Of a stretch of 64,000 bases of DNA, positions 11,176 to 20,341 are shown in pieces (the stretch's first letter is position 1; the number at the start of each line of letters is the position of its first letter). This stretch comes from Anabaena sp. UHCC 0187. GTDB lineage: Bacteria; Cyanobacteriota; Cyanobacteriia; Cyanobacteriales; Nostocaceae. The notes beneath the pieces are model-generated. The model did not search any database. It saw only the letters and a program-made list of their open reading frames with translations, and had not been told where the DNA came from. The position numbers were made by a program, and so were the translations under genes. The stretch is from positions 293,872-357,871 of the forward strand of contig NZ_VILB01000011.1 in the NCBI RefSeq assembly GCF_009712035.1, read 5' to 3'.

Positions 11176-12078
11176 ATGATCAATACTACATTTCCCATGA
11201 CAACTTCTACAAAAATTTGGCAATGGCTTGGCTTTTCTATTTGTTACCAAACCCAAGGGACTACAGGACCTGCTGTAATTCTCATCCATGGATTTGGCGC
11301 ATCATGGTTGCACTGGCGCAAAAATATTCCAGCTTTAGCAGTCAATTGCCGAGTTTATGCTATTGATTTAATTGGCTTTGGGGGTTCAGATAAACCCAAA
11401 CCAGGGGAACAAATTACCTACACACTAGAAACCTGGGGACAACAAGTAGCTGATTTCTGTCGGGAAGTGGTGGGTGAACCTGCATTTCTAGTGGGAAATT
11501 CCATTGGTTGTATTGTCGCTATGCAAGCAGCAGCAACTAACCCAGATGTGGCTTTAGGAACTGCATTATTGAACTGTTCTTTGCGGTTATTACATGATCG
11601 CAAACGTGTTACTTTACCTTGGATGAAGCGGTTTGGTGCGCCAATTTTGCAAAACTTGTTAGCAATTCAATCTGTGGGGGACTTCTTTTTTAATCGTCTG
11701 GCTCAACCAAAAACAGTTAAAAATATTCTTTTACAAGCCTATGCTAACCCAGAAACGGTGACAGATGAATTAGTTGATATTCTGATGACACCAGCCAAAG
11801 ATCCTGGGGCTGCTGCTGTATTTTTAGCTTTTACTGCTTACTCTAGTGGTCCTTTACCGGAAGACTTATTACCTAGATTATCTTGTCCAGTGATTATTTT
11901 ATGGGGAACGGCTGACCCTTGGGAACCTATTAATTTAGGGAGAGAGTTAGCCAATTTTCCCCAAGTTCAAAAGTTTATTCCTTTAGAAGGTGTGGGACAC
12001 TGTCCTCAAGATGAAGCTCCTGAGTTGGTAAATCCGATTTTACTGAATTGGATTGGTGAGTTACTAAGCAGAAGGTAG
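11176..12078 (+). CDS. Alpha/beta-fold hydrolase
   Basis: Serine hydrolase of 300 residues. The oxyanion-hole motif HGFGAS is at 38-43, the nucleophile elbow GNSIG has Ser at about 109, the acid is probably the Asp in GTADPW (about 246) and the His in GVGHCPQ (about 275). Cyanobacterial relatives with this elbow include chlorophyll dephytylase and pheophytinase-like enzymes, but the sequence does not prove that substrate. The frame opens at a TTG (11146); ATGs at 11176 and 11197 are both plausible and neither has a good ribosome-binding site. Confidence 0.85.
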   Translation: MINTTFPMTTSTKIWQWLGFSICYQTQGTTGPAVILIHGFGASWLHWRKNIPALAVNCRVYAIDLIGFGGSDKPKPGEQITYTLETWGQQVADFCREVVGEPAFLVGNSIGCIVAMQAAATNPDVALGTALLNCSLRLLHDRKRVTLPWMKRFGAPILQNLLAIQSVGDFFFNRLAQPKTVKNILLQAYANPETVTDELVDILMTPAKDPGAAAVFLAFTAYSSGPLPEDLLPRLSCPVIILWGTADPWEPINLGRELANFPQVQKFIPLEGVGHCPQDEAPELVNPILLNWIGELLSRR

Positions 12079-12106
12079 TAGGGCAGATGAACTTCATCTT
12101 TGATAG

Positions 12107-12292
12107 TTATCTACCATACCAACTACCATATTTCTTTTTCTTCCGATTTCTGCCAGATTTTTTAGGTTTATAACCTCCACCATAGCCATCATCTCTATCA
12201 TCTTTATCACCTCGGTATCCGCCAGTTAGAAGTTGCTGTTCTTCTATGGATAATTCCACAAGTAAATTAGATAGGATATTTTGATTTGACAT
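12107..12292 (-). CDS. Double-glycine leader precursor peptide (61 aa)
   Basis: Putative secreted bacteriocin-like peptide. The 25-residue leader ends in GG (EEQQLLTGG) and is nearly the same as the leaders of the three following small genes. This is the type cleaved by the C39 peptidase encoded upstream at 14.6-16.7 kb. The core of 36 residues has no cysteine. It is rich in Lys, Arg, Asp, Gly and Tyr (acidic DKDDRDD, then basic NRKKKK), so it cannot be a lanthipeptide or a disulphide peptide. GAGG lies upstream of the ATG. It has its own copy of the shared promoter block (12343-12415). Confidence 0.8.
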   Translation of the reverse strand: MSNQNILSNLLVELSIEEQQLLTGGYRGDKDDRDDGYGGGYKPKKSGRNRKKKKYGSWYGR

Positions 12293-12342
12293 AAATAATT
12301 GTTGACCTCAATTGTTTGATTAGGTGTCATATACCTATGCTT

Positions 12343-12415
12343 ACTTTATAAAAGGTTTTTCGATCAATGTAATGATTCTATGGTCGTAAATTAATAATTA
12401 TAATTTCTATCTTTT
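12343..12415 (-). promoter_or_regulatory. Conserved upstream block of precursor genes, copy 1
   Basis: Plus-strand order: TTTATAA, then AATGATTCTATGG, then TTTCTATCTT. The same order occurs upstream of three sibling genes at nearly the same distance from the ATG. On the minus strand TTATAAAG would serve as the -10 region about 54 bases before the start codon. Confidence 0.6.
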
Positions 12416-12524
12416 GAATTAGATATTTAAGTTGTGAAAATTGAAAGTTAAACATGGTTTAAATATTTTATTTCTAATCAAATACTTCTAGTGATAATTG
12501 TTAGATAAAGACTTTCACTGCTGA

Positions 12525-12549
12525 CATTCCCAGCCAATGGCTGGGAATG
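12525..12549. terminator. Perfect 11-bp hairpin downstream of the 67-aa precursor gene
   Basis: CATTCCCAGCC and GGCTGGGAATG are perfect complements around a 3-base loop, 41 bases after the stop of the minus-strand precursor gene. No U-run follows on either strand, so this may be a processing or stabilising hairpin. Confidence 0.5.
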
Positions 12550-12590
12550 AATCTAATAAGTTTAAACTAGGACAGAACTAGGTTAGCTTA

Positions 12591-12794
12591 CTACCAGCGA
12601 CGGCGGGGTCTCCAACCTCCACCACCTCCGTGCCAGGGACCAGAACCACCCCAGTTACCGCCACCACCGCACCGAGGACCACAGTGACCACCGCCTCTGT
12701 GCCAAGGACCACCCCAGTGACCACCAGATAGCAGTTGTTGTTCTTCTGTAGATAATTCCTCAAGCAAATCAGATTTGATGTTTTGATCAGACAT
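12591..12794 (-). CDS. Double-glycine leader precursor peptide (67 aa, Gly/Trp/His-rich)
   Basis: The 25-residue leader (MSDQN...LSTEEQQLLSGG) is followed by a 42-residue core with 18 glycines, six tryptophans, three histidines, two cysteines and a basic RPRRRW end. The leader marks it as a substrate of the neighbouring C39 exporter. The Gly-rich, His/Cys-containing core could bind metal or act on membranes; this is inference. GGAGG lies about ten bases before the ATG (GGAGGCTGACAAT). A frame overlapping it in another phase is a shadow. Confidence 0.82.
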   Translation of the reverse strand: MSDQNIKSDLLEELSTEEQQLLSGGHWGGPWHRGGGHCGPRCGGGGNWGGSGPWHGGGGGWRPRRRW

Positions 12795-12839
12795 AATTGT
12801 CAGCCTCCATTCGTTGATAGATATTATTTAACCCTCATC

Positions 12840-12910
12840 TTTTTATAAGCTTTATCTCGATAATTTTAATGATTCTATGGTTATAAAATAATCGTTGCGA
12901 TTTCTATCTT
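12840..12910 (-). promoter_or_regulatory. Conserved upstream block of precursor genes, copy 2
   Basis: Contains CTTTTTATAAGC, AATGATTCTATGGTTATAAA and TTTCTATCTT on the plus strand, in the same order as the other copies. TATAA lies about 48 bases upstream of the ATG of the 67-aa precursor. Confidence 0.65.
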
Positions 12911-13228
12911 TAGCATTATATAAATTCATGAATTTATTTATTTTTTACCACTAGGGGCTGACTACTACAAACATGAGTAACTTACAACTTTAAACTGTCA
13001 TATTAAAAAAAGAGAGAGGAGAAAGTTATGGCACAAAATTTAGCAAGTTTCTGTTTTATTTCTCAACGGTAGATGTCAAGATTTACAGATTCAGAGACTA
13101 AGATAGTGCTGATGCTTGATCTCAAGCCATTTATGTGAAATTTTCTCCTCACCCTATAACTATAAATTTGAAAACGAAGACTATTAAGGATAGCCTAGTT
13201 TATAGACTTTAGCTACTAAGGAAGATTA

Positions 13229-13435
13229 TTAACAACCTGGCTTAGAGTCACTATCAGAGGAACTATCATCACCGTCATAAGGTGTAGGTTCATCATATTT
13301 GGGATAGTCTCCGCAACATTTTTGTTTTTTCGGTTTACAGCAAGGGGAGGACTTATACAATCCTCCAGATAAGAGTTCTTGTTCTGCTGTAGATAGGTCC
13401 TCAAATAAATTAAATGTGGTATTTTGATTAGACAT
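13229..13435 (-). CDS. Double-glycine leader precursor peptide (68 aa, Cys-rich)
   Basis: The 25-residue leader ends AEQELLSGG. The 43-residue core has five cysteines (two CC pairs and a C-terminal GC), a basic KPKKQK stretch and an acidic, serine-rich tail (DDSSSDSDS). Disulphide formation or metal binding is possible. No modifying enzyme is encoded nearby. GGAGG lies upstream of the ATG (GGAGGCTCATAATC). It sits between its sibling genes, and each has its own upstream block, so these are probably separate transcripts rather than one operon. Confidence 0.82.
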   Translation of the reverse strand: MSNQNTTFNLFEDLSTAEQELLSGGLYKSSPCCKPKKQKCCGDYPKYDEPTPYDGDDSSSDSDSKPGC

Positions 13436-13478
13436 GATTATGAGCCTCCATTGGTTTACTGATTATTCACTTCTAATC

Positions 13479-13550
13479 CTTTTATAAGCTTTATTTTCAG
13501 AGATTCAATGATTCTCTAGTTATAAATTAATAAATATAATTTCTATCTTC
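13479..13550 (-). promoter_or_regulatory. Conserved upstream block of precursor genes, copy 3
   Basis: Plus-strand CTTTTATAAGCTTTAT, then AATGATTCTCTAGTTATAAATTAAT, then TTTCTATCTT. TATAA is about 46 bases upstream of the ATG of the 68-aa precursor. Confidence 0.65.
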
Positions 13551-13628
13551 TAATTTATATTTAAAGCTATAATAATATCCAATTGATCAAGCATTTTAGA
13601 AACATTGAATCTTTTTATGTGACAAAAA

Positions 13629-13661
13629 CCCACTCAAAAAACAATCAATTTTTTGAGTGGG
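13629..13661 (-). terminator. Strong intrinsic terminator of the 51-aa precursor gene
   Basis: CCCACTCAAAAAA (13629-13641) and TTTTTTGAGTGGG (13649-13661) form a perfect 13-bp stem. On the minus strand it is followed by TTTTTG, the classic layout, 52 bases after the stop of the short precursor gene. It separates that gene from the 68-aa gene. Confidence 0.88.
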
Positions 13662-13712
13662 CTATCTGTTTATTAAACGCTACTTAATAATTGCAAAGTT
13701 CTCAGATGACCT

Positions 13713-13868
13713 TTAAGAATCTTCATCACGCTCGCTATCACGCTCACCTTTTGGACAATACCAGTAGCATTTCTTGTAACATCGTTTATTCTTTCCTCCA
13801 GATAAAAGTTCCTGTTCTTCTGTGGATAATTCGACAAGCAAATTAGATTTAGTGATTTGAGTGGACAT
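13713..13868 (-). CDS. Double-glycine leader precursor peptide (51 aa)
   Basis: A short gene that a 60-codon cutoff would miss. It starts ATG at 13868 and stops TAA at 13713-13715. The leader of 25 residues (MSTQITKSNLLVELSTEEQE then LLSGG) is almost the same as those of the neighbours. The 26-residue core has three cysteines in a basic/aromatic half (RCYKKCYWYC) and an acidic half (ERDSERDED). GAGG lies upstream of the ATG, a shared-type promoter block lies at 13913-13964, and a strong terminator lies downstream. All of this supports a real gene. Confidence 0.85.
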   Translation of the reverse strand: MSTQITKSNLLVELSTEEQELLSGGKNKRCYKKCYWYCPKGERDSERDEDS

Positions 13869-13912
13869 GATTGTTAGCCTCAATTTATAAATAGGTGAAT
13901 AACACCTGTGCC

Positions 13913-13964
13913 TCTTTTATAAATATTTTTTATTATAAATAAATGACTCAATAGTTATAAATTT
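13913..13964 (-). promoter_or_regulatory. Conserved upstream block of precursor genes, copy 4 (divergent)
   Basis: Contains CTTTTATAAAT, then AATGACTCAATAGTTATAAAT. The TTTCTATCTT part is not conserved here. TATAA lies about 47 bases upstream of the ATG of the 51-aa precursor, the same spacing as in copies 2 and 3. Confidence 0.5.
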
Positions 13965-14176
13965 GTAAGACTTTAAATTGTTCTTAGGATATATCTATAT
14001 TTAGGCATATCTCTTTCTTTTAACTCATGTTGATTTTATTTGTCTCATTCATAATAACTCAAGGATGTGTGCGTAATTTTTAAAGAGAGTTATTTATTAA
14101 TTCAGGCAAGAGAAAATGTAGAGCAGAAAATAAAGCTGTCTCTACAAGAAAGTTTTTGAATTTAAATATAGCGATT

Positions 14177-14482
14177 TCATGAAATCAAATTATTTAGAAG
14201 ATTGGGCAAAAAATCACTCAATTTATCACCACTAGAACTAATTGTTAAGAATCCAAATGTAAAAGAAAGTGCCATAGTAATTTGAGAAAATTTGTACTTG
14301 GTGGTTTGTGTGTTAGAATCACCTGAAGCTAAAGTTAAATCATTTTTTCCTTCAGTTTCTAAATCGGTTTTTTGGAAGAATAATTTACCTTCATTGAATA
14401 AACCTAACATTGGAATATTTTGCCCACCAACTACAGATTCTTGTTCGGCATCAGAAAGATATCTAAATAATTTATTTGGCAT
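14177..14482 (-). CDS. Double-glycine leader protein downstream of the exporter (101 aa)
   Basis: Leader-bearing protein of different type. The 20-residue leader ends SDAEQESVVGG; the 81-residue remainder contains a hydrophobic segment (SQITMALSFTFGFLTISS, about 66-83) and no cysteine. AAGGAG lies eight bases before the ATG. It follows the C39 exporter gene by 68 bases on the same strand and is probably in its operon, so it may be either a substrate or an accessory/immunity factor. The leader favours a substrate. Confidence 0.75.
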   Translation of the reverse strand: MPNKLFRYLSDAEQESVVGGQNIPMLGLFNEGKLFFQKTDLETEGKNDLTLASGDSNTQTTKYKFSQITMALSFTFGFLTISSSGDKLSDFLPNLLNNLIS

Positions 14483-14550
14483 ATTATTACTCCTTGCATA
14501 AGTAACTAGATTGGGTTAATTGATTAGCAAAAAACTTTAACAATGTTGAT

Positions 14551-16719
14551 TTATGCAGCTAAAAACTGTAAATGCTCTCCCGGTTTTGATAAAAAAGTAT
14601 CAGGAGTTCCTTGAATTTGTACTTGACCTTTTTCTATGAGAACAATCCAATTAGCTCGGTGAATGACGCTAGGACGATGGGTAATTAAAATTGTGGTTTT
14701 ACCTCTACGATATTCCAACAGACGATCTAGAACATGAGCTTCACTCATCGGATCTAGTCCAGCAGTAGCTTCATCTAAAATCAGTATAGGTGGATTTGTG
14801 AGAATTCCGCGAGCGATCGCTAATCTTTGTCTTTGTCCACCGGAAAGATTTGCCCCAAATTCCCCTAATACGGTTTGATATTTATTGGGTAATTGACTGA
14901 TAAAACCATCTGCATCAGCAATATCACAAGCTTGAACAATTTCTTCAAAAGAAATAGAAGGTGTTCCTAAACGGAAGTTTTCTAAAATTGAACGACTCCA
15001 AAAATGAGGTTCTTGGGGAACATAAACTACTTGTTGTCGGTAACAATCTAAGGCAATATCTTGGATATTAAAAAACCCGATGCGGATATTACCAGAATCT
15101 GGTACATATAGACCAGCCAATAATTTTGCTAAAGTGCTTTTACCACAACCTGATTTACCAATTAATGCAATAACTTGTCCCCCAGGAAGCTGAAGAGAAA
15201 AATCATCTAATAAGTCAATTCTGCCTGGATGATGAAATTGGAGATGGGAACAACTAATATCTGCTACACTAGAAATTTGGGCAATGGGCTTTTGACTTCC
15301 TCCTACTACTTCTGGTGTAGCATCAATAACTTCTAATAATCGAGAAACTGCGGTTTGAGAACGAAAATATTCATCAACAAAACCAACCAATGAGTTAATT
15401 AAAGCTAAAACATTCACTTGTAAAGCATTAAAAGCTAACATTTGTCCAATGCTTAAATTGCCTTTAATTACTAACATACTTCCAAATCCTAGCAAGACAA
15501 CACCACCAATTGTAGAGATGATTTTAGCAATAGTTCCGTTGATAATTGCAATTTGAACTGTGCTAAAAGCAAGATTGGCAAGACGACCAAAGCGACTTTG
15601 AAATTCATCCCAAAATTGAGGAGCAGCATTGGTAGTTTTAATTACTTGTGCGCCTTTAAATGTTTCTACTAAAACACCTTGATTTTCTGCACCTAAAACC
15701 AAGAGACTCCGGGTTTTTTGTTGCAGAATTGGCAAAAAAGGTAAGGTAGATAAAGTTATTAACCCAGCAACTACTAAGACTGCTATTGTTAATTGCCAGC
15801 TATAAAATAACATTAAGCAAAAAGAAATCACAGCGATGAAAAACTGGCTCGGTAAAACAATCACAATCTGTGATACTAATTGGTTGATTTCACCAATATC
15901 TCGGAGTCGGCTAGTGATTTCACCACTGCGACGAGATTCATAATAATTTAAGGGTAATTGCAGAAGTTTGCGTCCAAATTCTAGGACTAAACCTAATTGT
16001 AATCTTTGCCCAAAATGAGAAATCATTAAGGCTTGAAATACTTGCAAACCTCCACTAAATAAACTCATGACGACAACTGCGGAAACTACAACAGTCAGTA
16101 ATTGTACATCTCCTCGAACGAGAACATCATCTGTTAATAATTGAATTAAAACAGGACTTCCCAGAGCTAATAAACCCAGGACAATATTGATCATTAAAAC
16201 CTGAGTTAGCAACCCACGATAGGGTACAATACGGCGAAAAAAGCGCGTTATCCCACCTTTTGATTGTTCTTGGGGTTGCTCAGAAAAGCGATCCGGATCT
16301 GGCTCTAATAAGAGCATTACCCCATTCCAAGCGGTGGTTAATTCTTCTTTAGTCAAATAACGAATACCCACAGCCGGATCGGCAATTACATATTTTTTGC
16401 CTTTTTTACCATATAAAACAACCCAATGATAACCTTGCCAATGGATAATGGCAGGTAATGTAATTTCTGTAATTCTGTCTATAATTTCTGGGGAAGCCTT
16501 AACTGCTCTAGCATTAAAACCGAGATTTTCTGAGCCTCGTTTTAAACCTAATAATGTTGTTCCTAATTGTCCAGTACCAACAGCTTCTCGGCTTTTAATC
16601 ATGCTTAAAAAGCGTCCATAATACTTGCTAATAGAAACTAGACAAGCTGCTCCACAGTCTTCTTCACTTAACTGTAAAGTACATTGGTAATTTTGATGAG
16701 GTTTGAAAATATTGAGCAT
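14551..16719 (-). CDS. Peptidase-containing ABC transporter (C39 peptidase, SunT/HlyB-like)
   Basis: Bifunctional inner-membrane exporter that cuts double-glycine leaders and exports the core peptide. From the ATG at 16719 it has 722 residues. The N-terminal C39 peptidase has catalytic Cys22 (DCGAAC), His98 (YHW) and Asp114 (ADP). A six-helix membrane domain follows (about 165-450). The ATPase has Walker A GKSGCGKST, signature LSGGQRQR, Walker B ILILDEAT and the switch His in ITHRPS. An in-frame start at 16767 adds 16 residues. With the HlyD gene upstream it forms the export machine for the leader peptides around it. Confidence 0.93.
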   Translation of the reverse strand: MLNIFKPHQNYQCTLQLSEEDCGAACLVSISKYYGRFLSMIKSREAVGTGQLGTTLLGLKRGSENLGFNARAVKASPEIIDRITEITLPAIIHWQGYHWVVLYGKKGKKYVIADPAVGIRYLTKEELTTAWNGVMLLLEPDPDRFSEQPQEQSKGGITRFFRRIVPYRGLLTQVLMINIVLGLLALGSPVLIQLLTDDVLVRGDVQLLTVVVSAVVVMSLFSGGLQVFQALMISHFGQRLQLGLVLEFGRKLLQLPLNYYESRRSGEITSRLRDIGEINQLVSQIVIVLPSQFFIAVISFCLMLFYSWQLTIAVLVVAGLITLSTLPFLPILQQKTRSLLVLGAENQGVLVETFKGAQVIKTTNAAPQFWDEFQSRFGRLANLAFSTVQIAIINGTIAKIISTIGGVVLLGFGSMLVIKGNLSIGQMLAFNALQVNVLALINSLVGFVDEYFRSQTAVSRLLEVIDATPEVVGGSQKPIAQISSVADISCSHLQFHHPGRIDLLDDFSLQLPGGQVIALIGKSGCGKSTLAKLLAGLYVPDSGNIRIGFFNIQDIALDCYRQQVVYVPQEPHFWSRSILENFRLGTPSISFEEIVQACDIADADGFISQLPNKYQTVLGEFGANLSGGQRQRLAIARGILTNPPILILDEATAGLDPMSEAHVLDRLLEYRRGKTTILITHRPSVIHRANWIVLIEKGQVQIQGTPDTFLSKPGEHLQFLAA

Positions 16720-16764
16720 AATTAGTAAGATGAGTTGAGTAGGTTGGGTTGACGTGAGGAGATC

Positions 16765-16900
16765 CAACTTTATTAAAGATTTTGTTGAGTTGTGCTGTTG
16801 CTTAACCCAACAGAGAGTATTAGTAACAGGAGTTTATTTGACGGAAGTAAACACAACTTTATTAAAGATTTTGTTGGGTTGCGCTGTCGCTTAACCCAAC
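16765..16900. repeat. Two direct copies of a 47-bp GTTGGGTT/AACCCAAC repeat
   Basis: A 47-base unit beginning CAACTTTATTAAAG and ending CTTAACCCAAC occurs at 16765-16811 and 16854-16900 with few differences. Each unit contains GTTG(A/G)GTTG facing AACCCAAC, so it can fold. A further GGTTGGGTT lies just outside (16742-16750). Copies of the same GGTTGGGTT/AACCCAACC family occur at 27.3, 33.4 and 33.7 kb. The pair fills the gap between the HlyD and exporter genes. Confidence 0.85.
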
Positions 16901-16912
16901 CTACGTTTTTAT

Positions 16913-18493
16913 TTATAAATTAGTGATTAATTTGCCTTTTCTGAGGATGAATTGGAGTACAGTTTCCCGACGGGAGATAATATCAGCCCGTCCTTCCATA
17001 CCAGATTTGAGATAACATGAGTGGTTGCTTTTTCCTAAAAATAGACTTTGTGGTTCAATATTAATTTCGTAAGTAGCTATTTGGGGTGTACTAATAATGG
17101 AATTATTTTGTGTAGTTACAAGAACATCTGCTCCAACTGTTTTCACAGTTCCTTTGAGAGTTCCATAGTCTGGATAGGGACAAGCTGAAACCTGCATTTG
17201 CACTGGTTGACCAGTTTTTACTTTGTCAATATCCTTAGCAGAAACATGAGCTTTGATGATTAAAGGAGCATCCGCAGGAGCAATTTGAGCAAGAGCTTCA
17301 CTGATTTGTACAACCTGTCCAGCGTTGCGGAGTTTGAGTTGCATGAGGGTGCCGGTGGCTGGTGAGCGAATTACACTTTTATTCAACTCATTTTCTAGCT
17401 GTTGTAGTTCTTGACGAGTGCGAATTTGCTGTTTTTGCAGTTCTAGACGTTGCTGAATTAATATTTCGCGTTCTTTTTTTAAAGCCGCTAAATTGCCTTC
17501 ACCTTTAGCTTTTTCTTGTTGAATTCGTTCCAATGCTACTGTAACAATTGCCGGACTGGGATTAACGGCAATTTTTGCTTTTTGTAAGTTTATTTTGGCT
17601 AATTTTACAGCTTGTTCTTTTTCTTCTTGGAGATTTTTAGAACTGGATTTGGCTTGTTCTAATTTAGCTTGAGCCGATTTTACAGCTTGTTCTTTTTCCT
17701 CAACTAAATTGCGAGATATTGCTCCTGATGTAACTACACTTCGCAAGCGATCATGCTGTAAAATAGCTAGTTTTAAAGCTGCTTCTGCTTCTTCTACAGT
17801 GGCTACTAACACCCTTTCTCTTTGTAATCTTGCTAGTTGCTCATTTGCTAAATTTATAGCTATTTTAGCTTGAATCATTTCCGCACTAGCTTTAATTTGC
17901 TGATCTTTATAATTGCGTTCCGTTCCAGCTAATTCAGCTTGTGCAGCTAAAATAGTGCGGTCATTTAAGTTGGTTTGAGAAACTATTTGAGTATTAATTT
18001 GATTGATTTGAGCATCAATTTGAATAAGTTGCAATTGACTTTGCTGGATAGTATTTTGCAGTTGTCTTTTTTGAGATTGCAGTTGGGAGTCATCAATATA
18101 AGCAATTATTTCTCCCTTATCTACTACCTGATTTTCTTTAACTACAATTCTTTTTACAGTTCCTGTCATTGCAGATTCAACTAACCGTAATTCTCCCAAT
18201 GGTCGGATAGTTGCAGGGACTTTGACTGTAATATTGTAATAGAGGACAGAGGTGAGACTTACAGCCACTACAAACATACTAATCATCACTCCCCCACCGA
18301 TATGAATCCATTTGCCAATATGGGGGAGAAACTCATTAGCTTCTAGTAAATGCAAATCCTCTGTAGTCCCGTTATTGAAGTTATACCAAGAATTGTTATC
18401 TTGACTCTGACTCTGTAAGGAATTCACGCTATTACACCTTCTGTTAGGACTAAAATAGTCTGACCTCAGATAGAAATTACTAATATCATGCAA
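16913..18493 (-). CDS. HlyD-family membrane-fusion (periplasmic adaptor) protein
   Basis: Adaptor linking the inner-membrane ABC exporter to an outer-membrane channel. It has 526 residues: a cytoplasmic N-tail, one membrane helix (about 64-86), a biotinyl-lipoyl-like hairpin split around a very long coiled coil (about 130-370, rich in Gln, Glu, Leu and Ala), then the second lipoyl half (RSPATGTL) and a C-terminal beta-barrel region. It is 145 bases upstream of the C39 exporter gene on the same strand. An outer-membrane TolC-like partner is not in the window. Confidence 0.9.
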   Translation of the reverse strand: MHDISNFYLRSDYFSPNRRCNSVNSLQSQSQDNNSWYNFNNGTTEDLHLLEANEFLPHIGKWIHIGGGVMISMFVVAVSLTSVLYYNITVKVPATIRPLGELRLVESAMTGTVKRIVVKENQVVDKGEIIAYIDDSQLQSQKRQLQNTIQQSQLQLIQIDAQINQINTQIVSQTNLNDRTILAAQAELAGTERNYKDQQIKASAEMIQAKIAINLANEQLARLQRERVLVATVEEAEAALKLAILQHDRLRSVVTSGAISRNLVEEKEQAVKSAQAKLEQAKSSSKNLQEEKEQAVKLAKINLQKAKIAVNPSPAIVTVALERIQQEKAKGEGNLAALKKEREILIQQRLELQKQQIRTRQELQQLENELNKSVIRSPATGTLMQLKLRNAGQVVQISEALAQIAPADAPLIIKAHVSAKDIDKVKTGQPVQMQVSACPYPDYGTLKGTVKTVGADVLVTTQNNSIISTPQIATYEINIEPQSLFLGKSNHSCYLKSGMEGRADIISRRETVLQFILRKGKLITNL

Positions 18494-18576
18494 CTCGAAA
18501 AGTAACTATCTTAGGTAATAAATTAGCGGAAATAAAAACAAGTAAATTTCTCTATTCACAGGGTGAAAAATTATTT

Positions 18577-18762
18577 GATCATGGGTTATAATCTAGTGAA
18601 GGGGGTAGAGATAGTTATGCCCTTGCATTGGGAGTTATCTTTCTCAAATCTTCGACGCGGCTCAAGCGTTAAAAAAATGGGGGAGGAGAATTAAACTTTC
18701 TCAAAGTCCTCACTTACGTTGAGCAAGTTCTTATCATCTCCTCTAACCCCCTTTATGATCTA
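18577..18762. repeat. MITE-like element with imperfect inverted ends
   Basis: Left end GATCAT...AAGGGGGTAGAG (18577-18610) is mirrored by the right end, whose complement reads GATCATAAAGGGGGTTAGAG (18735-18760). Inside, GCTCAAGCGT (18660-18669) faces ACGTTGAGC (18717-18725), and CTTTCTCAAA occurs twice. The whole could fold as one long hairpin. No reading frame is inside. It lies between the CTB-type precursor and HlyD genes and could be a miniature transposable element or a structured leader. Confidence 0.5.
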
Positions 18763-18807
18763 AAAAAGGTATTGACTAGCAGTGCAGAGCGGTAAAAAGA
18801 ACTAACC

Positions 18808-18857
18808 ATTAAAAATTCCTAAAAAGCTGGCGCAATTTGCTTTTTTAATTTTTAATT
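18808..18857 (-). terminator. Terminator-like repeat, copy A (after the CTB-type gene)
   Basis: On the minus strand: AATTAAAAATTAAAAAAGCA, then CCAGCTTTTTAG, then AATTTTTAAT. AAAAAGC pairs with GCTTTTT and the outer AT-rich arms can pair too. Two very similar copies occur at 39724-39778 and 49679-49730, each just downstream of a gene in the same orientation. Confidence 0.6.
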
Positions 18858-18925
18858 CTTATTAATTCCGCCCTGCGGCGCTAGTTCAATTCAGCTTTGA
18901 GATTGGGAAACCTACTAGCCCATAT

Positions 18926-19291
18926 TTACTGAAGTGCAACTCCAGTTAGTGCAACTTCGGGTTGAGCTAAGAGTCCACCACCTACTGGTGGTGTAATTCC
19001 AATTCCTCCGTTACCTGGTAGGACTGCTGGACCTAAAGCCCCTACACTAGCAGGAGGTTCTGCACCTAAGCCTAAGAAATCTTGTGCCGCAGTCAGGATG
19101 GTATTAGCCTTACCTGCGGAAGTAGCACTGCTACCTTGAGGACCGGAAACACTTGTTCCCATTAAGAGTGATCCTTTGTTAGCGTAATTACTACCAGCTA
19201 GTTCAAAGTCAGCCCCACCAGTTACTATCTCTTGTTGTTGATCAGATAAAGCAACAAGCAAATCGGATGCGTTGATTTGATTTAACATCAT
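18926..19291 (-). CDS. CTB-family-type bacteriocin precursor (double-glycine leader)
   Basis: Secreted-peptide precursor of 121 residues. The leader (ASDLLVALSDQQQEIVTGG) is the typical form of the cyanobacterial CTB bacteriocin family, followed by ADFELAGSNYA and a Gly/Ala/Pro-rich core with AQDFLGLGAEPPAS and repeated proline-glycine turns. No cysteine is present. The ATG at 19291 follows GAGGC by six bases; the next ATG (19288) is also possible. It is the first gene of the minus-strand run CTB, HlyD, C39 exporter. The MITE-like element lies between it and HlyD. Confidence 0.85.
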   Translation of the reverse strand: MMLNQINASDLLVALSDQQQEIVTGGADFELAGSNYANKGSLLMGTSVSGPQGSSATSAGKANTILTAAQDFLGLGAEPPASVGALGPAVLPGNGGIGITPPVGGGLLAQPEVALTGVALQ

Positions 19292-19303
19292 TATTAGCCT
19301 CAC

Positions 19304-19633
19304 TTACGTAATTAGGTGTTTCACCACCTAACAACTCAACTATAAGCATTATTGCCTAAGAATTCATAAACCTACGGGTAGAAAGTAAAGTTTATAAATT
19401 TACCTCTAAAAGTAGAGACAAAATAGTTCTTTATCACTAGAATAGTCTTATTAGAAGATTAATATTCAGTTCCATAAAATCTGCAAAATATTTATTTTTT
19501 TTCTATAGAAAACTCTGATTATCTAGATTTATTTAGGTTTTTTACTAGGTTTTCCCCTCAATAAAAAATTCAATCTCTATATTCTTAGATATCTTTAATT
19601 TCCAAAAAATCATTTTGCTAGATCAAAAATTAT
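19304..19633. other. AT-rich spacer upstream of the CTB-type gene
   Basis: Runs of A/T only. It must contain the promoter of the CTB-type precursor, but none of the shared blocks of the small precursor genes was seen here. Confidence 0.5.
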
Positions 19634-20341
19634 TCAGTAAGCAGAGAGTAGCTGAGTTAATATATAGGCACAGGTAGCACTACCGATAGGAACTGTTAAG
19701 TTATCTATTCCCAAAAAAGAGAACGCTTCTAAAATCGTAGCAATAAAGGCGACAATTAACGAAACTATCCAAGTTTGCCAAATGTTACCTTGGGTAATCA
19801 GTAAAAGAATTACACAAATCAAATAACTAATAAAAGTAACTGTGAAAGAACCTTCCCAGCTTTTTTGAGCGCCGAAAGCTAGATATTTGTGTTTACCAAA
19901 GCGTTTGCCAATTAAAGCAGCTAGTCCATCTCCCCACGCCATAGTCATAATTCCTAAAACAGCATATTGGGGTTGGTGTAAATGCCAGAAAATACCTACT
20001 AAAACACCAATACTCACAGCATAGAAGAAAGTACCTAAACTGTGACGGCCGATGCTATTAATACCAGGAAGAATCGGGAATTTATAAGATAATAAAGTGA
20101 TAATACTCGCAAAAACTGAAGCTGTAATTCCCACAAATGGGGGAATATCTAACCACCAAGCAATTAAAATAACATTACCTGTGCCAATATGCACGATTTT
20201 ACGAATGATTTCCGGTTCGCTATTAGTAAAACGATTAACCGCCCAAGCAATGCAGATAATTAATCCTACCCAAGCCGCTGCGGGGGCAATTTGCAGCGAC
20301 AATGGGGAAAGGGTTTCTAAGCTGAGGAATGTGTTAAACAA
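19634..20341 (-). CDS. Phytol/polyprenol kinase-like (VTE5/SEC59-type) membrane protein
   Basis: Polytopic CTP-dependent kinase-type protein of 235 residues. The family motif [10 protein letters not shown] (about 47-56) and [20 protein letters not shown] (about 134-153) are seen, with several hydrophobic helices. Cyanobacterial members phosphorylate phytol released from chlorophyll so it can be reused for tocopherol or chlorophyll. That role is inferred from the family; dolichol or diacylglycerol kinases share the fold. It is divergent from yidD, with 52 bases between starts. Confidence 0.82.

Follow-up and report, generated by a model that had tools for sequence, protein, structure and literature searches.

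In a 64,000-nt stretch of the genome of Anabaena sp. UHCC 0187 (hereafter the window), six genes for small peptides tagged with double-glycine (GG) leaders (61, 67, 68, 51, 101 and 121 residues) flank the genes for an HlyD-family adaptor and a C39-peptidase ATP-binding cassette (ABC) exporter. Many such precursor genes, here and in related strains, are preceded by a noncoding 5' element, made of a short hairpin and GTAAGTGAGG directly before the start codon. Comparison across the Nostocaceae suggests that these genes probably encode co-regulated, separately promoted secreted peptides of a vertically inherited locus, cut after the GG by the neighbouring exporter. The type of cluster is already known; the 5' element of the tagged-precursor genes is the new part.

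A 5' element precedes precursor genes near to and far from the exporter

At the scale of the family, the regions upstream of the precursors share the block TTTATAAC..AGAATAATT, a TATAA-like box, the hairpin ATAGGTG..CACCTAT and (AC)GTAAGTGAGG before the start codon, while genes upstream of HlyD share only the hairpin and (AC)GTAAGTGAGG part of this layout. Of the 124 short precursors 60 have TATAAC in their upstream region, versus none of the 76 genes upstream of HlyD, and an initial search for inverted repeats detected strong stems in 18 of the 124 (1-2 in shuffles) and in 0 of the 76. The block TTTATAAC..AGAATAATT, seen ahead of the hairpin of short precursors in loci L047-L106, is possibly a regulator site.

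A model of the element (R1, 63 positions) was built from 53 upstream regions. We started with 224 regions, of which 85 passed a hairpin-plus-GAGG filter and 53 were left after removal of near-duplicates; two were then removed by hand and two window regions added, giving 53 again, and training on sequences filtered in this way favours the hairpin. In 80 named loci the model made 131 matches, every one on the strand of the exporter, and an intact tagged open reading frame (ORF), as recognised by a regular expression for the leader, follows 108 of them. Sequences absent from L047-L106 make up 46 of the 131 matches, and in 39 of these cases an intact tagged ORF comes next. The 59 loci with matches have exporters 78-96% identical to that of the window, against 64-73% in the 21 loci without.

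We then applied the model alone to whole genomes of the family, with stricter filters, and found the element in 28 of 60. Among the 28 genomes with an exporter at least 77% identical to that of the window, all but one (G013) had it, as against 1 of the 32 others (G004). In a class-wide sample of 194 genomes, scanned under similarly strict filters, 8 had matches, all from the family of the window; two further family genomes were listed without a match, and 166 genomes without matches were not listed by family.

Twenty-three matches lie away from the exporter site, and each was read individually: 21 precede a GG precursor, one an AG variant (L224) and one a broken leader (G004). The 21 distant GG precursors, of 60-99 amino acids (aa), start within 3 nt of the element and have cores different again. 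Eight of the 23 matches are on the contig of the orthologous exporter, from 32 kb to megabases off (four in G035, two in G038, one each in G026 and G014); the four in G035 (L221) all precede tagged precursors and lie about 610 kb from the exporter orthologue. The remainder are on other contigs of draft genomes or in G004, a genome without a listed exporter orthologue. Two of them (L223) were found on a short contig in a draft where the contig with the exporter ends early, and these may be part of the same array. We also considered and rejected a regulon of unrelated genes, since each of the 23 distant matches leads to a precursor or a broken precursor.

The stem varies in a manner consistent with base pairing. 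On an alignment fitted to the structure (144 distinct aligned matches; the aligner retained 150 of 152), all 7 pairs have two-sided changes, in 79 cells; shuffles gave 32.6 and slid controls no more than 11. A search of Rfam with positions 11900-19800 of the window gave three chance-level matches, none at gathering score, and the element is unnamed in the literature that we searched (open-licence papers, largely titles and abstracts).

Within the window, where all features described below are on the minus strand, the best example is the element of the 121-aa precursor gene (19289..19352; 64.2 bits), in which the hairpin TTAGGTG..CACCTAA is followed by ACGTAAGTGAGG and which folds at -12.2 kcal/mol (z -2.40). 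Those of the 51-aa precursor (13869..13930; 54.7 bits) and the 61-aa precursor (12297..12359; 54.1 bits) fold no better than shuffles; all three were members of the training set. The regions upstream of the 67-aa precursor (12795..12921) and the 68-aa precursor (13436..13560) repeat the upstream regions of their neighbours (families D1 and D2), and the hairpin is unrecognisable in both, with a non-significant score in the former (17.4 bits, E 0.76) and no model match in the latter. An extra copy of ACGTAAGTGAGG was seen at 18708-18719, between the 121-aa precursor and HlyD genes; no tagged ORF was seen behind it, and it is perhaps the remnant of a lost precursor.

The exporter and its precursors

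From 19291 to 12107 the genes are ordered as 121-aa precursor, HlyD adaptor, exporter and 101-aa precursor, followed by the 51-, 68-, 67- and 61-aa precursors, and the six precursor ORFs were found where an initial annotation of this DNA had placed them, with the lengths it had given. The exporter (14551..16719) is of the short type, with 722 aa from its ATG (the ORF is listed to 16767, from a TTG), and has Pfam matches to C39 (117.8 bits), ABC_membrane and ABC_tran; the adaptor (16913..18493, start codon uncertain) has an HlyD_3 domain. The exporter was also rightly described as intact, as it retains the cysteine of EEDCGAAC, the histidine of YHWVVLYG and the aspartate of IADPAVG, which we take to be the C39 catalytic residues. 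The annotation's further statement that no LanM or YcaO enzyme lies nearby extends to the whole genome, where neither LANC_like nor YcaO has a match (radical SAM was not searched genome-wide).

Five C39 matches were found in the genome of the window. One of them, on contig C13 (L209 7520-12270), adjoins a second HlyD gene and two further GG precursors; these contain MSNLLFTVVPIEQQETIIGG.. and MSNLFTAVSVEQQEIVAGG.., and their leaders are of a different kind. PADLOC gave no anti-phage defence match for the six precursors of the window.

The site in related genomes

Of the 145 family genomes sampled, 144 have a match to the exporter at E 1e-100 or better, paralogues included. For comparison we used the 60 best-scoring exporter matches from other genomes together with the window, 61 loci in total; nine further genomes with 77-81% exporter identity are listed outside this set. 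Named relatives with exporters 93-96% identical include Dolichospermum, Anabaena and Aphanizomenon. An HlyD gene lies beside the exporter in all 61 loci, and the outer flanks recur as well: the protein encoded at 19634-20341 in the window (no Pfam match) and YidD each in 49 loci, an abhydrolase in 39, homologues of pyrH and frr in 31 and a redoxin in 26, although some contigs end early (pyrH was named from its amino-acid-kinase match and its position beside frr). The recurrence of the same flanking genes suggests that the exporter site is old and, most simply, vertically inherited in Nostocaceae. The HlyD protein diverges far faster than the adjoining exporter, with 46-64% identity where the exporter has 80-83%.

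In 39 array intervals we found no recurring ORF family (at least 45 aa, in at least 3 loci, at most six members per family being examined) beyond the precursors and their frame and antisense shadows. No dedicated immunity gene is therefore seen at the locus in relatives, in agreement with what the initial annotation had said of the window. A hydrophobic ORF family in 3 arrays was considered as a candidate immunity gene and rejected; it is the wrong frame of precursors missed by the regular expression. In 8 of 49 upstream intervals (e.g. L096, L098, L064) the gene of a conserved hydrophobic protein (FILWGLICAGIFITAQFLPISW) separates HlyD from the flank gene; it is not among the window ORFs listed.

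Common leaders on class-specific cores

In the 64 kb of the window the leader expression matched these six precursor ORFs and no others; when the window was shuffled in 200-nt blocks, 50 times over, it matched nothing. It misses variants (SG, AG, SPESQELISGG), so that precursor counts are lower bounds; reading the ORFs of the array intervals brought up 11 more genes of the 101-aa class, as well as others that it had missed. The leaders of the four short precursors have 25 residues each, as annotated, but to call them nearly identical was too strong, as pairwise they have 15-19 of 25 residues in common. If the 121-aa precursor is read from its second Met, its leader also has 25 residues and is related to the four, with 10-13 of 25 identities, and the 101-aa precursor has a GG leader of 20 residues. 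In 39 chosen leaders M1, L14, Q19, G24 and G25 are invariant, which fits the substrate pattern of C39 (peptidase-containing ABC transporter, PCAT) proteins, with conserved hydrophobic and acidic positions. A leader profile that included the window's own leaders made five strong matches in the genome, all at this locus, and one weak match (E 2.7e-4) at the second locus.

Within-genome homogenisation of the leaders by gene conversion was considered and rejected: in a selection of 26 genes from loci closest to that of the window, the DNA identity between leaders of different classes was.734 within a genome (22 pairs) versus.741 between genomes (239 pairs). For leaders of the same class in different genomes it was.797 (64 pairs). 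By these comparisons, leaders follow the core class and not the genome.

The cores behind these leaders are diverse. The 61-aa precursor (12107..12292) has a Cys-free, charged core, YRGDKDDRDD..KKKKYGSWYGR; the 68-aa one (13229..13435) a five-Cys core with CCKPKKQKCCG; the 51-aa one (13713..13868) a three-Cys core (KRCYKKCYWYCPK); and the 67-aa one (12591..12794) a core rich in Gly, Trp, His and Arg. The initial annotation had the Cys content of the first three right, while the Gly/Trp/His-rich precursor also has 2 Cys. The 101-aa precursor (14177..14482), 68 nt behind the exporter gene, has the conserved core FFQKTD..SQTTKYKFSQ. The 121-aa precursor (18926..19291) is a full member of the NCBIfam family NF038167 'CTB family bacteriocin' (77.3 bits, cut-off 32); we refer to it as the CTB precursor. 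The other five, with unrelated cores, match NF038167 through the leader, at 17.8-28.6 bits (25.6 for the 61-aa precursor) and thus under the cut-off. None of the six matched the NHLP or Nif11-type precursor models of NCBIfam up to E 1. The CTB alignment found no solved structural relative better than E 0.39, and of 388 genomes sampled across the class, 66 have a CTB match (E 0.001).

Compared by core alone with phmmer, 123 of the 124 downstream precursors fell into 50 groups, 37 of them singletons, a number that overstates novelty because many singletons are Gly/aromatic repeats whose scores the composition correction of phmmer may lower. Recurring groups include cores with the tails RRIPIRLTGILEVVK, PDIxVxGxLTxxxGxxFPV, CCKPKKQKC, PTYICRPVY and RPIICYxY. 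Counting the window, 10 of the 61 loci have the five-Cys core (10 genes), and the three-Cys and charged cores are found in 2 loci each; the charged core is 92% identical to the one in L047. The 101-aa core was aligned from 23 loci (alignment A2; 23 of 24 candidates, one being a short precursor), with variants in 11 more; for the genes upstream of HlyD, alignment A3 holds 48 of 76 precursors, picked by motif. The Gly-rich core of the 67-aa precursor is a phmmer singleton and was grouped with relatives by eye. Cores are thus unrelated between paralogues, yet for five of the six in the window homologues in relatives are clear, those of the Gly-rich core being recognised by eye only.

Mean identities of leader and core, respectively, are.85 and.75 for CTB,.77 and.76 for the 101-aa class,.71 and.48 for the five-Cys class,.80 and.62 for the three-Cys class (1 pair),.92 and.92 for the charged class (1 pair),.68 and.68 for the Gly class (with 40% of core columns gapped), and.86 and.54 for the RPIICY class, which is absent from the window. 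Pooled ratios of nonsynonymous to synonymous substitution (dN/dS) are, in the same order,.27 and.46 for CTB,.43 and.60 for five-Cys,.44 and.52 for three-Cys (one pair),.22 and.32 for Gly and.10 and.54 for the RPIICY class of relatives; in the 101-aa class the leader has.39 and the core.26. For two of the classes the values come from a single pair, and in one class the leader ratio is undefined. Positive selection on the cores was rejected, as every defined pooled core dN/dS is below 1.

These data bear out a shared export tag on diverse peptides, as the initial annotation had proposed. Its idea of rapid core diversification stands in part, as the core changes faster than the leader in most classes, but with dN/dS below 1 wherever defined the cores are not free-running. 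It had also held that cores as conserved as their leaders would speak against this idea; some are (.76 versus.77 in the 101-aa class), whereas others are not.

The first slot behind the 101-aa gene illustrates how the array may change. The upstream regions of the three-Cys gene of the window and of the RPIICY gene of L058 are 88% identical, while the cores look unrelated; from this comparison the slot is conserved and its core changed, through divergence or replacement.

Discussion

In the mechanism that we propose, each short precursor would be expressed from its own upstream region, in many cases with a 5' hairpin just ahead of the ribosome-binding site. The C39 domain of the neighbouring exporter would recognise the GG leader and cleave after the GG, and the core would pass out by way of HlyD and an outer-membrane channel whose gene lies elsewhere. 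Cores would arise and vanish by duplication, divergence and decay, mostly in the fixed array and sometimes elsewhere in the genome, and the shared 5' element would keep these changing cores in one expression programme.

Outside the cell, we tentatively favour a role as cell-surface or matrix peptides, a view to which we give somewhat less than an even chance. It is based on the analogy to EbfG1-4 and the exporter PteB of Synechococcus elongatus, as described in the portions of PMC4997328 and PMC9981879 used here, and on strand pairs in weak models of the two conserved precursors.

Several observations weigh against the picture of co-regulated, exported peptides or against this role. Cleavage, secretion and expression in Anabaena sp. 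UHCC 0187 are predictions. The element is recognisable at only three of the six window precursors, all three training members, and folded singly only one of five window regions has a notable z-score. The count of 79 cells rests on its structure-fitted alignment; in the unfitted training alignment A1 two-sided changes occur at 2 of 7 pairs, as in shuffles (20 cells versus 9.3), and RNAalifold on alignment A5 kept only 3 pairs (-0.65 kcal/mol). The AlphaFold2 models of the two conserved precursors are poor, with a mean predicted local distance difference test score (pLDDT) of 55.3 and 63.5, the latter, for the 101-aa precursor, with two long strands at about 75-80. Cationic Cys-rich and Gly-rich cores would suit bacteriocins too. 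Finally, the relation of EbfG to the window precursors is an analogy, and for the mature EbfGs the cited portions of PMC4997328 and PMC9981879 report no homologues in other cyanobacteria.

A class II (microcin-like) bacteriocin locus, whose cores would kill or inhibit related cyanobacteria and be diverse for that reason, is the strongest alternative, though we consider it unlikely. The database name 'CTB family bacteriocin' points to it, but in the data used here this name is backed by leader similarity, not by activity. The charge-patterned, Cys-rich or Gly/aromatic cores are in line with it, as is the decay of precursors suggested by element matches in front of broken leaders in several loci (e.g. 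L110 12862, L139 14586). Induction of a CTB operon by phosphate starvation in Nodularia, as reported in the consulted part of PMC9846622, may be cited in its favour, and is compatible with several readings. On the other side, two cores are as conserved as their leaders (one from a single pair), no immunity-like ORF of at least 45 aa recurs in the 39 array intervals, and the locus occupies a fixed chromosomal site across the family and is not mobile; because of the last two points a dedicated bacteriocin role is disfavoured here relative to the surface or matrix role.

How the element would act is a separate question. We put forward, with some reserve, the possibility that it is a family-specific regulatory RNA, through which a trans-acting factor or small RNA would read precursor mRNAs, whether their genes lie close to the exporter or at a distance, and switch the changing peptide repertoire as one regulon; a new core joining element and leader would then be at once expressed and exported. 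The hairpin might instead be a palindromic DNA site for a transcription factor, which appears rather improbable to us. The training set shows almost no variation in the letters AGG..CCT, and single window members mostly fold no better than shuffles, as would suit a DNA site; but the arms are spaced 3 to about 40 nt apart with pairing kept, which speaks for RNA, stems with other letters exist (L234, L238), and the distance from the element to the start codon is almost constant.

That the peptides are signals between cells of a filament or between filaments, for which separate upstream regions would permit graded expression, is very unlikely, as the array intervals have no recurring ORF for a receptor or sensor and the repeat-rich cores are unlike pheromones. 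C39 exporters do also carry pheromones, and one of them, HetC, governs the differentiation of heterocysts in Nostoc PCC 7120, but in the part of PMC10986499 considered here HetC offers no substrate precedent.

If the element acts as RNA, as we tentatively suggest, it would represent a regulatory RNA family of Nostocaceae absent from Rfam. Its model also offers a way of finding very small secreted-peptide genes with unrelated cores from noncoding sequence alone. In addition, the function of many cyanobacterial 'bacteriocin' clusters becomes an experimentally testable question.

Comparison with known systems

Residues 9-710 of the 722 of the exporter align to the solved 'ABC-type bacteriocin transporter' 4ry2, a peptidase-containing ABC transporter, so that similarity is near full-length with the same C39-membrane-ATPase order. 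We take 4ry2 to be a Clostridium thermocellum transporter without an HlyD partner gene, unlike the exporter of the window.

Among cyanobacteria, EbfG1-4 of S. elongatus PCC 7942 resemble the peptides of the window in pairing several small GG proteins with a C39 exporter. As given in the same portions of PMC4997328 and PMC9981879, their secretion depends on PteB and EbfG1-3 form amyloid. They are encoded in one four-gene operon, unlike the array of the window, and the likeness drawn here is one of gene layout. The table of Wang, Fewer and Sivonen (2011, PMC3140520) gives one group III cluster for this strain.

It is to these group III bacteriocin clusters that the locus belongs, judged by its gene content, and the initial annotation was right that cyanobacterial clusters with HlyD and C39 exporters were already known. 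In the sections of PMC3140520 on which we draw, group III clusters have HlyD, a short-type C39-ABC exporter, several diverse GG precursors each (on average 3.89 per cluster) and no LanM. The window locus likewise has an HlyD gene, an exporter of 722 aa whose C39 domain starts near residue 10 with no N-terminal CAP_ED-type match listed, and no LanM or YcaO-type enzyme genome-wide; among the 16 proteins at 8.9-22.1 kb run against Pfam, a subset of the ORFs, there was no second ABC transporter and no SurA. To group III as described in those sections, the locus adds a fixed ancestral site, separate upstream regions, recurring core classes, the 5' element and distant precursors.

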